A DNA stretch of 64,000 bases from Cercospora beticola (taxonomy: Eukaryota > Ascomycota > Dothideomycetes > Mycosphaerellales > Mycosphaerellaceae): contig NC_088938.1 in assembly GCF_033473495.1 (NCBI RefSeq), positions 3,844,001 through 3,908,000 of the forward strand, given 5' to 3'. Below are positions 4,768 through 62,059 of the stretch, one piece after another. The notes beneath the pieces were generated by a model. The model did no database searches. It was given only the letters and a program-made list of their open reading frames with translations, and was not told the origin of the DNA. The number at the start of each line of letters is the position of its first letter. Positions within the stretch are counted from its first letter, which is position 1. A program made the translations under genes and the position numbers.

Positions 4768-6434
4768 TCAAGCAGCCGCCTTCGCCTTCGCCTTCATCCT
4801 CACCCAAACAGGATCCTTGAACCAGACACCAAAATTCTTCTGTGTCGCGAACCAATCTCTCCCACCCATCTTGTCTTCATTCAGCTCGAGATCGAAATCG
4901 AACAGGATCTTGGACAGAATCAATCGCATCTCCGCATGTGCCAAGTTCTGTCCGATACAGTTCCTCGTCTGAGAAAAATATCAGCTTGTGTTCAGCGACT
5001 TGTTGGTAAACACTATTTCACTTACACCTGCAGCAAAAGGCTGGAAACTCGCTTTCTTGTCGTCGGAGAAGTCTGTTGCATCAGATGCCCAGCGTTCGGG
5101 AATGAACTCGTCAGGCCGCACAAAATTGCCCGGTAAACGGTTGATGGCGAAATGATTTGCGTGAATACTGATCTGTAAATCAAGCAAAAGTCAGCGATGT
5201 TGAGCTTATGCCATCAGAGATTACCCGGACGTATCATACTTACACCTTCTGGATACCATCTTCCGCAGACTGCTGCTCCACCACGAGGAGGCACGCGTGG
5301 AAGGCCATCTGCCACAGGAGGATACATTCTCATCGCTTCGAGAAGGACGTGGTGCATGTATGTCAGCTGACCAACGGTAGCCAGGTTGATCTCATCGCTG
5401 GACGCAAAAGTCGTTCGGACCTCCTGCGTCACCTTTTGCAAAACTCCGGGGTTCTTGCACAAAAGATATGTGGCACCACTCAGCGTCGTGGCAGTCGTCT
5501 CAGCCCCGGCAAGAATCAGGAACGAAGCATTGACCTTCATCTCATCCAGCGTCATGCCTTCGCCTTTATCGTTCTCTCCGCTCTTAATCAAGACTTTGTC
5601 CCAGAAGTCCCCGCGAGGTCCGTCATTCCCAGCGTCCGCACGCCGCTCTGTCAACTGAGCAGAATACAAGCTATTCAGCTTATGCGCCTCAGCCAACTTC
5701 GGGTCCGCGAGGATCGGGATCAAGAAAGGAAGGTAATGCTTCATCAGAGCGCCAGCCTTGAAGAAGAATTCCGTGGCATGCATCGAAACATCCACCCAAT
5801 TATGCACGACCTGATCTCTCAGCCCATTGAACGGTTCTCCCCAGGTGAGATCACCGAGCACATCAAAAACCGTCATGGTATACCAATCAACCATATCCAA
5901 CGTCTTTCCTTCCGAAGCATGCTCATGAAGCCGCTGAATCAAAAGATCAATATAATACATAAACCTAGGCTCCTGATCCTTAATCCCCTTGGCCGAGAAA
6001 GCATAAGCCAACAATCTTCGAAACCGAGAATGATCCTCCTTATCTGCCATAAAGACATTCTTCACAGGCTCGAAATTCGCCTCGGTGAACTGCGGATCTT
6101 TAGGAAATTCTGGTTTTGCTGACCAGACTTCTTTCCAAACTGCGCCATCTCCAAGACTGACTTCGTTGGGTGCGATTCGGACTTCGGTGCCATATTGTCG
6201 GTGGAGTTCGAGTATTCGGTGCAGAGCTGTGCCGTTGAAAGAATGGTAGTCGAATGGGATTCGCGAAGCTGCCCACCACCATGGACCGGGGACGTCTCGC
6301 ATGGGATGTAGGAAGAGGTTGTAGAAGATGCGACCTAAGGTGTACAGTGTAACACCTCCGGCCAGCAGGGCGATGATCGCGAGGCCTGGACTTTGTTGCA
6401 CATGTTGTGCGATTTCGAGGCCTGAGGAGGCCAT
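4768..6434 (-). CDS. Cytochrome P450 monooxygenase (three exons)
   Basis: Exons 6434-5244, 5172-5026 and 4968-4768 join in frame to 512 aa. Introns are 71 and 57 nt; both donors are GTAAGT and both acceptors CAG. The N-terminus has one membrane anchor (IIALLAGGVTLYTLG), then the proline-rich hinge RDVPGPWWW. The I-helix AGAETTATTLS lies near residue 307, the K-helix EAMR near 365, and the haem-binding loop FAAGTRNCIG is made across the second splice, with Cys450 as axial ligand. It resembles the CYP65/isotrichodermin-hydroxylase type of fungal P450, but the substrate cannot be told. No backbone synthase or other secondary-metabolism gene is nearby, so it looks like a lone P450. Confidence 0.93.
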
Positions 6435-17439: not shown

Positions 17440-17728
17440 CCTGGTTAGAAATGTGATGACTAGTGAATGAAGACTTGATTTGTGAGTGTTTGTTTGATCA
17501 GATCCCTTGACATTGTTATTCTATATCTCGCACAAAGATTGGAATACTAAGACAAAAGACAAAGAAGGAGAAAGAACCTTTACCTGTCGTCGTGAGATCG
17601 CCTTTCAGAAGACTCCCGTATTCCAGCCAGTGCTACAAAGTAGCTCCTACCTGTACTGACAGAGTGGTTCCCGAAAGGCCTGTGCTTGAGAGTGAAGCTT
17701 ATTGATCCTAGTTAGCACTGCAGACGAC
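17440..17728. other. Convergent intergenic region
   Basis: 289 bp between a plus-strand stop and the 3' end of the cysteine-repeat gene. I see nothing beyond 3' flanks. Confidence 0.4.
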
Positions 17729-18991
17729 TTAGCGACAGCTTACCAGATGACTGTTCTGAGCGGTGCTCAGGCGGTGAGGCTTCACTGGAGCGTCGCACCG
17801 ACACTTGTCCACAGCACGGCCGCAATCCAAGCAGGTGTCAGCCTTCACAGTGGTTGCGAACTGGTTCTTTACCGCGCTGTCAACCATGAAGGCGATGTGC
17901 TTTGCAGCGCAGTCGATTGCGAATTGGTTCTTTACGGCACAACAGCAGTCGCTGATGTTCTGTCGGCAGATCTAATTTTGAAAATGGTCAGTAAAATGTC
18001 CACAAACAGTTGTGATGGGGATTTGGGGGGAAGAAACTTACAGGGCAAGTGTCCGAGAGTGTGCTGATGGCGAATTGGTTTTTCACGGCACAACAGCAGT
18101 CGCTGATATTCTGTCGGCAGATCTAGTGAAAATGGTTAGTAAAATGTCCACAAATAGTTGTGATGGGGAAAGGGGGAAAGAAACTTACAGGGCAAGTGTC
18201 CGAGAGTGTGCTGATGGCGAATTGGTTCTTTACCGCACAACTGCAGTCGCTGATGTTCTGTCGCTGTAAAAAAGTCAGTGAGATGTCAAAGTGGTAATGG
18301 GGGATGGGGGAAGAAACTTACACAAGTTGGACAAGTGTCCCAGCCCATGCTCTGGCCGGGGAAGGCACCTAGGGTTAGCAAGCTGGTCTTCATCGCGCTG
18401 TCAACCATGTAGGTGATGTGCTTAGCAGCGCAGTCGATTGCGAACTTGTTCTTTACCGCACAACAGCAGTCGCTGATATTCTGTCGCTGTTCAAATAGTC
18501 AGTAAAATGCACGCACAAAGTCGTGATAGGGGATTGGGGGGAAAACTTACACAAATTGGACAAGTGTCCGAGTCGATTGCGAATTGGTTCTTCACGGCGC
18601 AGCTGCAGTCGCTGATGTTCTGTCGCTGTTGAAATGTCAGTAAAATGTACGCACAAAGGTGTGATTGGGGACGGGGAAAGGAACTTACACAAGTTGGACA
18701 AGTGTCCCAGCCCATGCTCTGGGCATCAGCCGAGTCGAAAATGTCTCGACGACGAGGCTGCACAGGAGCCTCGCATCGGCATGTCGCGATGCTGCGACGG
18801 CAGCTCGGGCAGCGTTCGACGTCCATTGCGGTCGGGATAGTCAGGTAGGCGGTTGCCACTGGGTAGTTGTTGTAGTTGGTAGTGTTGTTGCACATCTTGT
18901 AGATGTGCAAGAAAGGGTTTGGGTTTTCGGTCGCGGTTTTGTCTTGGTCGATTGCTTGGTCAGAGTTGTCTAGATTGTTTGCCAGAAACAA
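17729..18991 (-). CDS. Cysteine-repeat protein made of tandemly duplicated exon-intron units
   Basis: Six exons reconstruct by hand: 18991-18689, 18625-18551, 18486-18322, 18263-18189, 18122-18042 and 17971-17729, giving about 313 aa from the first ATG (or 258 aa from ATG 18826). All introns (63, 64, 58, 66 and 70 nt) are phase 0, start GTAAGTT and share one ancestral sequence: a C-rich stretch, an ACATTTTACTRAC-like branch region, then the acceptor. Exons 2-6 each carry RQNISDC[SC]CAVKN[QK]FAI. Across the splices the protein has seven C-x2-C-x6-C-x-C motifs. The first (CPSCRRSIATCRC) and last (CLDCGRAVDKCRC) are diverged, and both are followed by [ED]APV. No signal peptide or transmembrane segment. 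Zinc or another metal is the obvious ligand guess. I recognise no known family. An alternative for the 3' end is a very short last intron after SHL. Confidence 0.72.
17972..18688 (-). repeat. Tandem exon-intron repeat array (five units)
   Basis: Units start at successive RQNISDC codons and recur at about 139, 223, 141 and 148-152 bp spacing. Both exon and intron portions are similar between units, so the duplications covered genomic DNA and are fairly recent. Two longer units (exons 3 and 6) carry an extra CAAKHI...MVDSA[MV]K segment, which points to a two-tier expansion. Confidence 0.8.
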
Positions 18992-19063
18992 GTAGAGCTG
19001 TCTGAACGAGGTATCGAGGGACTGATGAGGAGAGAATTCGAATTGGGGTTGGAGGGCGAGAGT

Positions 19064-19069
19064 CTTATA
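19064..19069 (-). promoter_or_regulatory. TATA-like element of the cysteine-repeat gene
   Basis: TATAAG on the minus strand lies about 75 bp upstream of the first ATG (18991), which supports using that ATG under simple scanning. Inference from position only. Confidence 0.3.
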
Positions 19070-20111
19070 CTGTGTGGAGGGTTACGGGGCTGTACAGTGG
19101 GCATTGTGGTCTGCGATCTGGTCAGTATAGTGCTTTGTGGTTGTGAATAATGGCATTTTGTGGCGTAAGAAAAATGCATGGTTGTGGCAGACATTAAACG
19201 CGCGGGAACGCCCTTTCATGAACGCTCAGACTTCTTTGTGTTGAACACAATGGCCTCTATTCCATTTCTTGTCGACATGAATATCGGGGTTGTCTAATGT
19301 CGAGTTGCTTTGTGCACGCTAAGGTAGTCAACAATGCAATGTAGTTTCGGCGTGAAAGGATAGAATCAGCACAGTGCGATGGCCAACGCATTCGAGTGTC
19401 GGTAGGCACAGTGGTCTTGTCGAAGTGCTTTCAATGCCGAATTCCAATGGCACGCCGCCTGGCAGGAGTTGAGTCGTGACTGTAGCAGTTAGCTCGAGGA
19501 TGTATGGCAACCGCGATGGAACTTCGAGGGAAGCCGCTGAGAGTGCTTCAGCTGCAACCAGAACTCAATAAGCGGATAGGGGATGGCGGTCAGGATGGAA
19601 CAGCACTGTCGATTCTGCTCTGCTTCCAATGTTTTTGGCTGCTTTCTCAGCCATGCTATGTCCAGCTCATCAACATCTGCACTTGCAGTCAGTTCTCCCT
19701 TCGCGAATGCATCGCTCTTTCCCCAATTCCCATCAACAAAAAAGCCTCACCCTGCATGCCCTTCATCAAATGCCAGGAGCATCGCACCCGCCGGGTGCTC
19801 AACCAGCAACTCAATGGTGAATCTCCAAACGAACGCCCGCGAGAACTCCTTCGCCATCCACGCTCAATAACGCCTTCAAATGTGTGTATGCCTCCGCATT
19901 GGTGTGCGGTGCTTGCTTGCTGCCTCCCTTGTCGCTTCCATGAGATGCTTGATTGACTGAATTCTGATGCTCCTGCCCGCTGCGCCGATGAGAGAATAAG
20001 TAAGGACTTTTAAGCTTCGTCTTCCGCCTTCTGTCTTCGCAGATGGCAATTACCATTATCGTTTGGTCTTCCGCTTGCACTTGATCAAGTGTCAAGTTCT
20101 GCATGGTGGGT
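19070..20111. other. Intergenic region
   Basis: About 1 kb between the promoter of the cysteine-repeat gene and the 3' end of the carrier gene. A 150-codon plus-strand frame at 19504-19956 has no domain and no coding-like composition. I see no gene. Confidence 0.35.
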
Positions 20112-58432: not shown

Positions 58433-59091
58433 ATGTCTCTGTCCGGCAATCTTTTCGACCCGCCAGCAGCAGTGAGAATTGAGCAACCAGCAGCGAAAGT
58501 CGAGCAACCAGCAGCGAAAGTCGAGCAACCAGCAGCAAAAGTTGAGCAACCAGAAGTGAAGGCTACGGAAGATCGTATCTTCTGGGGTAAACTCTTCAAG
58601 CAAGCAGGAAGAGTACTCCGATGTCACGATCAAGTTGTCTGACCGCCGCGAAATCACCTGCCACAAGGCCATTATTTGCAACCGATCCGAATACTTCCAG
58701 AAGTCATGACTCGCGGTTCGCTGAGAGCGACTGGAAGGTCAACGAGCTGCAAGAAGGCAACACGGAATTCATTGAGGCCATGCTTGTCCACCTTTACTTC
58801 GGGCCCTACGTGCCTGCTGCCAATGACACTGTACAGGGCAGCGACTGGCGCTTTCATGTCGAGGTATCTCGCGCCGCCGACAAGCTTCGTCGTACATGTG
58901 CAGTACCTTGTCTACGGCCCCATGTCGAAGGCGATCGTCAGACGATGTCTGAAACTTCTGGCTACCATCGTCAACACAAGCCAGACATGCGACGTCATTC
59001 TCGAGATCAAGAGCAAGTTCAACGACGTCGAAGATCTCATAAACAATGCGGCCGGCAATGGTTATGCAGCAACAGACTTGGTCACTCTGTG
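58433..59091 (+). pseudogene. Frameshifted BTB/POZ-domain gene
   Basis: Protein-like sequence moves through three successive frames. Frame 2 has MSLSGNLFDPP, a VEQPAAK repeat and FWGKLFK. At about 58600 it passes to frame 3 (EEYSDVTIKLSDRREI, then CHKAIICNRSEYFQK). At about 58690 it passes to frame 1 (SRFAESDWKVNELQEGNTEF and LVHLYFGPYV). At about 58890 it returns to frame 2 (VQYLVYGPMSKAIVRRCLKL). The middle parts are a BTB/POZ fold, normally a dimer or Cul3-adaptor domain. Three frame changes, all in the same direction and without good splice sites, argue for a pseudogene, though sequencing error cannot be ruled out. Confidence 0.6.
58497..58559 (+). repeat. 21-bp tandem repeat coding VEQPAAK
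   Basis: Three near-identical 21 bp units reading GTCGAGCAACCAGCAGC(G/A)AAA, preceded by a partial copy (IEQPAAK) and followed by VEQPEVK. It is in frame with the BTB relic, so it was probably once translated. Confidence 0.75.
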
Positions 59092-59499: not shown

Positions 59500-59800
59500 C
59501 ATGACATGGACATGAGAGGAGGAAGGGGGGAGGGGGAGAAATGAAGAAGAGAAACGAACAGCAAAAGAAGAGAATAAGTGAAAGAGAAATGAACAAAACA
59601 AAAAGAAAGAAGAGAATGAGTGAAAGGGAAACGGTCTTGCAGAGATAACGTGGGAGGGTGAAAGATGCAAGATTGAGCATGGTCGAGAGAACAAACATGG
59701 AGGAAAACGTCAGGATCTCGCGAAGAGAAAGTTGCGGCAGAGAGGAGAACGTACCAGTACGGAGGAGGAGGAAATAAGGGCGTGGAGATGAATAGGCGTG
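59500..59800. repeat. Purine-rich strand-asymmetric tract
   Basis: About 300 bp in which the plus strand is mostly A and G (for example GGAGGAAGGGGGGAGGGGG at 59517-59535). It holds two diverged copies of AAGAAGAGAATRAGTGAAAG about 44 bp apart. On the minus strand this makes long low-complexity Leu/Phe/Ser frames that should not be taken for genes. Confidence 0.6.
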
Positions 59801-59899
59801 GAGCATGGAGATGAACAGGCGTGGAGCATGGTTGAGGACAGGGCATGGAGCGGAGAGCATCGAGCAAGCGACAAGACAAGTGGCCTCAACAGCGGCGAA

Positions 59900-60335
59900 G
59901 CACTTTCAGCATCACCACCGGCGCGGCAACAGCAACAAGAAAAAGGCACAAGGCCACCGATGCACTTTCAGCACGGCCGCCAGCGCAGCAGCAGCAACAA
60001 AAAGACCCAAAGGGCACCAATGCACTTTCAGCACGGCCGCCAGCGCGGCAACGGCAACAGCAACAAACGCCACAAGGCTATGCCGACGCACTTTCAGCGT
60101 CATGGCAATGACTTTGGCAGAACTCGCCAGGCCGCATGCACTTTCAGCACGGCCGCCAGCGCAGCTCAGCAACAACAACGAAACCCACAAGGCCATGCCA
60201 ACGCTCTTTCAGCGTCGTGGCAATGACTTCGACGGAACCCACAAGCTCATGCCAACGCACTTTCAGCGTCATGGCAATGACTTCGACAAAACCCACAATG
60301 CCATCGTCGCACTTTCAGCATCGCCGCCAGCGCAG
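59900..60335 (+). repeat. Imperfect minisatellite with CACTTTCAGC core
   Basis: The core (G)CACTTTCAGC recurs at about 59900, 59962, 60022, 60088, 60138, 60257 and 60309, with CTCTTTCAGC at about 60203. Two follow-on types alternate: ACGGCCGCCAGCGC and GTCATGGCAATGACTT. Spacing is 50-66 bp. All frames are open across much of it because the units are stop-poor; I do not call a gene. Confidence 0.65.
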
Positions 60336-61123: not shown

Positions 61124-62059
61124 ATGAGCGATCTCGACAGCCTCGTCGACATGGGTTTCGACAAAGAGAAGTCCCAGATGGCGCTAAAGAAAGGTGGCAA
61201 TCTGCAAGGCGCCATAGACTGGCTCGACAAGAACGCCGACCGCAGCATCGAGCAGCTCAAGGCGGATGAGGCCGAAGACGCCGAGGCACCGCAGTTGGAG
61301 GCAGGCGAAACCGCACGATCTATGATTTGCAACGAGTGCCAGAAGAAGTTCCGATCGATGGCGCAGGCACAATTCCACGCCGAGAAGTCTGGGCATACAG
61401 ACTTCGCTGAGTCAACGGAGGAGATCGCACCCTTGACTGAAGAGGAAAAGAAAGCTAAGCTCGCAGAGCTGCGCGAGAAGGCCGCGGAGAGAAAGGCTAA
61501 GCAAGCCGTCGAGGAGAAGAAGGAACAGAAGCGGAACGAAGAGATTCGCCGGAAGCACACCAAAGAGTCGGACGATGCCAAGGAGGAGCTCGCGCGGAAG
61601 GAGCAGATCAAGGAAGCGGCAAAGAAGCGACAGGAGAAGGCTGATGATATCGCTGCGAAGAAGCGGATCAAAGACAAGATCGAGGCTGACAAGGCTGCTC
61701 GCAAGGCCAAGATCGAAGAAGAGAAGCGGATGCGCGAGAATCCTGCCGCGTACAACCCTGGTGCTGCGACTGCTCCTTCCGGCGCTGCTGCTGCGGCTGC
61801 TCCTGCGGCTGCTCCTGCCAAGGTGGTAAACCACAGTGAAGCACGTCTGCGGCTTCAGACCCCATCAGGCAACGTCATGAAGACGATGCCGGCCGAGACA
61901 ACACTATTCGAAGTTGCAGAAGCTATCAAGCACGAGAAAGGCACCGACGTTACCAGCTTCACACAAGCCTTCCCGAGGAAGACATGGAGCTACGAGGACT
62001 TCGGTCTGACGCTGAAGGAAGCAGGTCTGGTGCCATCGGCTGCGCTTGTCGTGAAATAG
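61124..62059 (+). CDS. UBA and UBX domain protein (UBXN1/SAKS1-like)
   Basis: 311 aa from ATG 61124 (ACCATGAGC context); a longer in-frame opening to 60755 lies in the leader. Residues 1-40 are a UBA domain (LVDMGFDKEKSQMAL). A C2H2 finger follows (C69, C72, H85, H91, in ICNECQKKFRSMAQAQFH). Then comes a long Lys/Glu/Ala coiled coil of about 120 residues (KRNEEIRRKHTKESDDAKEE) and an Ala/Pro hinge. The C-terminal UBX domain spans about 233-311 (ARLRLQTPSGNVMKTMPAET). UBA-UBX proteins bind ubiquitin and recruit Cdc48/p97 for proteasomal degradation. The finger with this order matches the UBXN1 type. It acts in the same pathway as UFD2 in this window. Confidence 0.92.
   Translation: MSDLDSLVDMGFDKEKSQMALKKGGNLQGAIDWLDKNADRSIEQLKADEAEDAEAPQLEAGETARSMICNECQKKFRSMAQAQFHAEKSGHTDFAESTEEIAPLTEEEKKAKLAELREKAAERKAKQAVEEKKEQKRNEEIRRKHTKESDDAKEELARKEQIKEAAKKRQEKADDIAAKKRIKDKIEADKAARKAKIEEEKRMRENPAAYNPGAATAPSGAAAAAAPAAAPAKVVNHSEARLRLQTPSGNVMKTMPAETTLFEVAEAIKHEKGTDVTSFTQAFPRKTWSYEDFGLTLKEAGLVPSAALVVK

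Follow-up and report, generated by a model that had tools for sequence, protein, structure and literature searches.

A minus-strand gene of the leaf-spot fungus Cercospora beticola, located at 18895-17647 of the window (the whole stretch of 64,000 nucleotides that was analysed), very probably grew by tandem duplication at the DNA level and unequal exchange, in the course of which its introns were carried along. As read from the window sequence, the gene consists of seven exons and six introns and encodes 287 residues, with the start codon at 18895 and the stop codon ending at 17647. The gene end at 17729 proposed in an earlier, sequence-only reading of this DNA results from a read-through of intron 6 (17743-17680), an intron that was absent from that account, which also left the strand unstated. 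The parts of the gene are as follows, position A and position B being the two sites at which introns 1 to 5 split the code.

Exon 1, 18689..18895, minus strand: carries the start codon (18895) and the N-terminal part, in which a single diverged C-x2-C-x6-C-x-C motif occurs; last residues ...QSMGWDTCPTC.
Intron 1, 18626..18688, minus strand: 63 nt, phase 0, position A (between CPTC and RQ).
Exon 2, 18551..18625, minus strand: RQNISDCSCAVKNQFAIDSDTCPIC.
Intron 2, 18487..18550, minus strand: 64 nt, phase 0, position A (between CPIC and RQ).
Exon 3, 18322..18486, minus strand: long unit RQNISDCCCAVKNKFAIDCAAKHI...FPGQSMGWDTCPTC; its tail is common to exon 1 and its body to exon 6.
Intron 3, 18264..18321, minus strand: 58 nt, phase 0, position A (between CPTC and RQ).
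Exon 4, 18189..18263, minus strand: RQNISDCSCAVKNQFAISTLSDTCP.
Intron 4, 18123..18188, minus strand: 66 nt, phase 0, position B (between CP and ICRQ), 6 nt upstream of position A.
Exon 5, 18042..18122, minus strand: ICRQNISDCCCAVKNQFAISTLSDTCP.
Intron 5, 17972..18041, minus strand: 70 nt, phase 0, position B (between CP and ICRQ).
Exon 6, 17744..17971, minus strand: final repeat core and C-terminal diverged motif CLDCGRAVDKCRC.
Intron 6, 17680..17743, minus strand: 64 nt, CTAAC branch site; no homology to introns 1-5.
Exon 7, 17647..17679, minus strand: AFREPLCQYR and stop; agrees with the C-terminus of the C. beticola protein P0001.

The spliced product and P0001 have equal length and differ at one of 287 residues (T68A, residue 68); apart from this exchange, the product of exon 1 corresponds to residues 1-69 of P0001. 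From the canonical splice sites and the matching public protein we infer that introns 1 to 6 are spliced as drawn. Intron 1 (18626-18688, 63 nt) contains no in-frame stop codon, and its retention would add 21 residues and leave the frame intact. That the array is an artefact of assembly or annotation, or that its introns stay unspliced, is extremely improbable. An assembly artefact is unlikely because P0001, a separate C. beticola record, shows these five units with identical splice joins and only the one residue exchanged. Moreover, the repeat cores differ at 4 to 8 of 54 bases and the introns by 9 to 30%, which argues against assembly copies, and introns 1 to 5 all possess GTAAGT at the donor, CTGAC or CTAAC at the branch site, and CAG or TAG at the acceptor.

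The five introns of 63, 64, 58, 66, and 70 nt, all in phase 0 and starting with GTAAGTT, were found as the sequence-only reading had described them, and their mutual homology was confirmed by alignment scores far above those of composition shuffles and window controls. In the ten pairwise alignments of introns 1 to 5, 46 to 60 bases matched over 55 to 66 aligned bases, and the z values were between 6.1 and 11.6 relative to composition shuffles in which donor and acceptor were kept. The scores within the array ranged from 27.5 to 49, whereas 655 comparisons with 131 intron-like segments taken elsewhere in the window gave control scores of at most 10.5. This looser set was used in place of a strict control set, which comprised only two segments. 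Intron 6, serving as an internal control, scored between -1 and 1.5 against introns 1 to 5. The similarity among introns 1 to 5 thus exceeds the splice consensus. The sequence ACATTTTACTRAC, supposed to be shared by all five introns, was present in exact form in three of them, with one mismatch in intron 2 and two mismatches in intron 3; when up to two mismatches were allowed, it occurred at six places in the window, five of which are introns 1 to 5 (shuffle mean, 1.41). In the case of the repeated protein module, CAVKNQFAI was exact in four of the five module exons, whereas exon 3 encodes CAVKNKFAI. Introns 1 to 5 have the same phase, and their flanking exons encode the same module, so that the phase is symmetric. 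RNA folding of the five introns was in no case clearly better than that of their own shuffles (z, -0.05 to 1.18), and a hairpin common to the introns was dropped as a candidate for this reason. A search of Rfam up to an E value of 1 yielded nothing within 17500-19100. Elsewhere in the window, Tandem Repeats Finder reported other tandem repeats with periods of 12 to 115 (58467-58560, 59783-60319, and 61762-61818), and two long open frames, of 304 and 406 aa, lie on opposite strands and overlap each other at 5208-6434.

The intron homology together with the duplicated flanking exons lends good support to the claim of the sequence-only reading that copying occurred at the DNA level with the introns carried along. 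DNA segments holding a short phase-0 intron at a module junction would have been multiplied by tandem duplication, and unequal exchange is the presumed mechanism by which the inner five modules increased in number. As the introns are in phase 0 and lie between modules, the gain or loss of a unit would keep the frame and add or remove one module. The expectation of strain-to-strain variation in unit number is unproven; P0001, the only other C. beticola protein found, contains the same five units. The proposal that whole exon-intron units were duplicated was correct in that the introns were copied along, but at least one break lies inside exons, as exon 3 is chimaeric. Its body resembles exon 6 (91% over 100 nt), and a 41-nt block spanning the exon 1/intron 1 boundary is identical to that at exon 3/intron 3, starting inside both exons. 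At the corresponding place the C. berteroae protein has FPGQSTLSDNCPIC, in contrast to FPGQSMGWDTCPTC here. Because exon 3 ends like exon 1 and C. berteroae has FPGQSTLSDNCPIC there, the place of exon 3 seems to have received a copied segment that begins within exon 1, the residues Q-S being common at the break.

The array is mostly not recent. Contrary to the assumption of recent copying, only introns 4 and 5 are close to each other (JC, 0.097), whereas the other nine intron pairs have values of 0.22 to 0.38. For the ten core pairs, a summed pS of 0.414 and a summed pN of 0.050 were obtained, which shows that the modules are under purifying selection. The dS values of the cores were 0.24 to 1.32 (with about 10 synonymous sites per pair, single values are rough), compared to intron JC values of 0.10 to 0.38. 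A lower divergence of the introns than of the core synonymous sites is not predicted by plain joint duplication and may be due to intron constraint, later exchange, or small numbers. It had been proposed to determine the order of the duplications by aligning the five introns; no single order could be read, as 39 of 55 pairs of informative sites were in mutual conflict. Random 2:3 splits would give a conflict of about 60% by our own calculation, and since the observed conflict is near this value, it points to an absent tree signal no less than to exchange. The conflicting informative sites also led us to abandon a tree relating the units.

The protein P0001 contains 35 cysteines in 287 residues and seven C-x2-C-x6-C-x-C motifs, one diverged motif in exon 1, five near-equal ones across exon junctions, and one diverged motif in exon 6; in shuffled sequences the mean motif count was 0.04 or less. 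Judged by the cysteine spacing, each module probably holds one zinc ion. No signal peptide was obvious by eye. Three protein searches, each over a limited length range, led to ten proteins (P0001 to P0010), the named sources of which are C. beticola, C. berteroae, C. zeae-maydis, Ramularia collo-cygni, and Teratosphaeria nubilosa. C. beticola and T. nubilosa belong to the Mycosphaerellales according to a taxonomy look-up, and the remaining named species are likewise placed there. The exact motif counts of P0001 to P0008 were 7, 4, 4, 5, 2, 5, 1, and 2 (P0009 and P0010 were left out). The motif number differs among the protein models of Cercospora species, ranging from 2 to 7, with 7 motifs in C. 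beticola, 4 in C. berteroae, 2 in C. zeae-maydis, and 4 in one close relative; the counts of the relatives come from protein models that are possibly incomplete or wrong, P0002 being apparently cut at the C-terminus.

In a Pfam scan of the protein, no family scored above its curated cut-off. PF24921 had the best E-value with 32.2 of 50 bits, PF13920 reached 18.2 of 27 bits, and PF22795 (26.5 of 27) and PF23208 (26 of 27) were near the threshold. P0004 scanned here also stayed below the cut-off with 26.9 of 27 bits, whereas the precomputed labels of the protein database are PF24921 for P0001 and PF13920 for P0004. The protein resembles these two RING and zinc-finger families in its CPxC cysteine pairs and differs from them by C-x2-C-x6-C-x-C motifs in series and by scores under the curated cut-offs. 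An AlphaFold prediction for P0003 (five sequences) had a mean pLDDT of 37.9 and was useless as a structure model. Sequence matches in the PDB to ferredoxins and an anti-CRISPR protein (E values of 0.0019 to 0.13) were read as chance similarity between cysteine-rich sequences.

In P0004, P0005, P0009, and P0010, the modules adjoin with nothing intron-like between them. The source contigs of P0004 and P0005 (up to 13.6 and 65.8 kb) are probably DNA, and therefore intronless module junctions probably exist. In the case of P0003 (contig of 1610 nt), the part corresponding to exon 1 agrees with P0001 except at 4 of 69 residues. Exon 1 adjoins the next module directly in P0003, yet the protein ends with VSCR, which is what an unspliced intron 6 would encode. 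If P0003 derives from unspliced DNA, it represents a near relative without introns at these junctions; if it derives from RNA, those introns were spliced and intron 6 was kept. Scans of viral contigs and of bacterial and archaeal genomes yielded no DNA of the relatives.

Intronless junctions would fit a rival reading in which introner-like elements, that is, an intron family able to insert in many genes, repeatedly invaded a module array that had no introns. Such elements are near-copies of one intron, as introns 1 to 5 are of each other, and are described in PMC4457414 for the same class of fungi, the Dothideomycetes. To look for further copies, the genome of 36,074,111 bases in 10 contigs was searched. 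With intron 5 as the query only introns 5 and 4 were found, and with intron 1 only intron 1 itself; as this query missed introns 2 to 5, the reach of the search was limited, and decayed copies could escape it. When up to two mismatches were allowed in a 17-nt branch-site pattern, it occurred at 22 places in the genome, 4 in the array and 18 outside, the latter being no clear excess over the 15 places of the reversed control. A narrow pattern representing the 5′ intron half detected only one of the five array introns (intron 3). At the sensitivity used, no intron copies beyond this gene were found in the 36-Mb genome, and near-identical copies in many unrelated genes, which characterize introner-like elements, were absent. 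When the protein was compared with the genome, all six matches were exons of this locus. The restriction to one gene at this sensitivity and the duplication of the exons beside the introns differ from the elements in PMC4457414, and we consider repeated insertion of such elements improbable.

Tandem duplication at the DNA level does not by itself explain that introns 1 to 5 lie at two positions, a feature absent from the earlier reading. Introns 1 to 3 split the code after CPxC, being preceded by GACACTTGTCCAAYTTGT (DTCP[TI]C) and followed by CGACAG (RQ), whereas introns 4 and 5 split it after CP, being preceded by GACACTTGCCCT (DTCP) and followed by ATCTGCCGACAG (ICRQ). Relative to the code, position B of introns 4 and 5 is thus 6 nt upstream of position A of introns 1 to 3. 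At both positions the joined exons encode CP[TI]CRQNISDC, and P0004 has CPICRQNISDC at several module joints. Inspection by eye revealed no alternative nearby donor or acceptor that would align both positions with the residues kept. In introns 1 to 3, the acceptor is followed 6 nt downstream by a second AG, which lies on the side opposite to position B. Use of this AG in introns 1 to 3 (18626-18688, 18487-18550, and 18264-18321) could yield isoforms without the residues RQ.

We rate the chances as even that descendants of a single intron occupy the two positions, both boundaries having moved with CPxC and the phase retained, and each form having been copied, which would be sliding or local re-insertion. 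According to Lehmann and colleagues (PMC2891723), intron similarity across both positions is sufficient for sliding. Such similarity was observed here, with scores of 27.5 to 33.5 between introns 1 to 3 and introns 4 and 5 compared to at most 10.5 for the controls, and the distance of 6 nt is a multiple of 3, as the same source expects. These authors also look for cryptic or tandem splice sites at the slide distance; the second AG of introns 1 to 3 has this distance from the acceptor but lies on the far side. No intron-less intermediate is expected for sliding, and the junctions of some relatives, which probably lack introns, count against it. The shift could have come about through paired changes of 6 nt, through conversion by a copy lacking introns, or through intron re-insertion.

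In one form of re-insertion, the modules would have multiplied without introns, after which one intron would have been copied into one junction after another within this gene, ending up at two positions 6 nt apart, for example by reverse splicing and recombination of a cDNA. The homologous introns at both positions, the probably intronless junctions of relatives, the probable absence of an intron where the last core adjoins the C-terminal motif within exon 6, and the lower divergence of introns than of synonymous sites (small numbers) are all consistent with this scenario. Nevertheless, adjacent units share the position (introns 1 to 3, and introns 4 and 5), as predicted by simple duplication, and no intermediate is known. 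This spread of one intron through an intronless array is also improbable, if marginally less so than the entry of introner-like elements, and duplication of intron-containing units is preferred.

Intragenic tandem duplication of exon-intron units is a general mode of repeat-protein growth. The gene described here conforms to it in having homologous introns between homologous module exons of the same phase, and differs from the usual case by its short fungal introns, its C-x2-C-x6-C-x-C protein, the break inside exons, and the two intron positions. In the titles and abstract beginnings searched, which covered few of the subscription journals, no description of the gene or of a similar fungal array appeared, and no paper was found for the peptide RQNISDC or for any of the locus tags from three relatives. 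Opinion on intron sliding is divided. Of 31 near intron pairs examined in Drosophila, 9 were credited to sliding, 3 of these with similar introns (PMC2891723), whereas Roy's survey of 28,256 Cryptococcus introns revealed no clear slide (PMC2740785), and Poverennaya and colleagues reported one possible case in mammals (PMC7730772); the latter two genome surveys call sliding rare or doubtful. The array shares with the near intron pairs in these sources the similar introns, the multiple-of-three spacing, and the retained coding residues, whereas both positions occur here within repeated units of one gene and not in orthologues.

The gene stands for a small fungal cysteine-repeat family scoring under every Pfam cut-off in our scan. 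Its growth by copying of exon-intron units is a known kind of event; what is useful is the retention of introns as markers in the copies, together with the occurrence of two intron positions in one array. Should both forms descend from a single intron, the gene would allow true intron sliding, or local re-insertion, to be read directly from an expanding repeat array. Specialist attention is best directed to the shifted intron position, and the locus across Cercospora could show whether and how introns slide.
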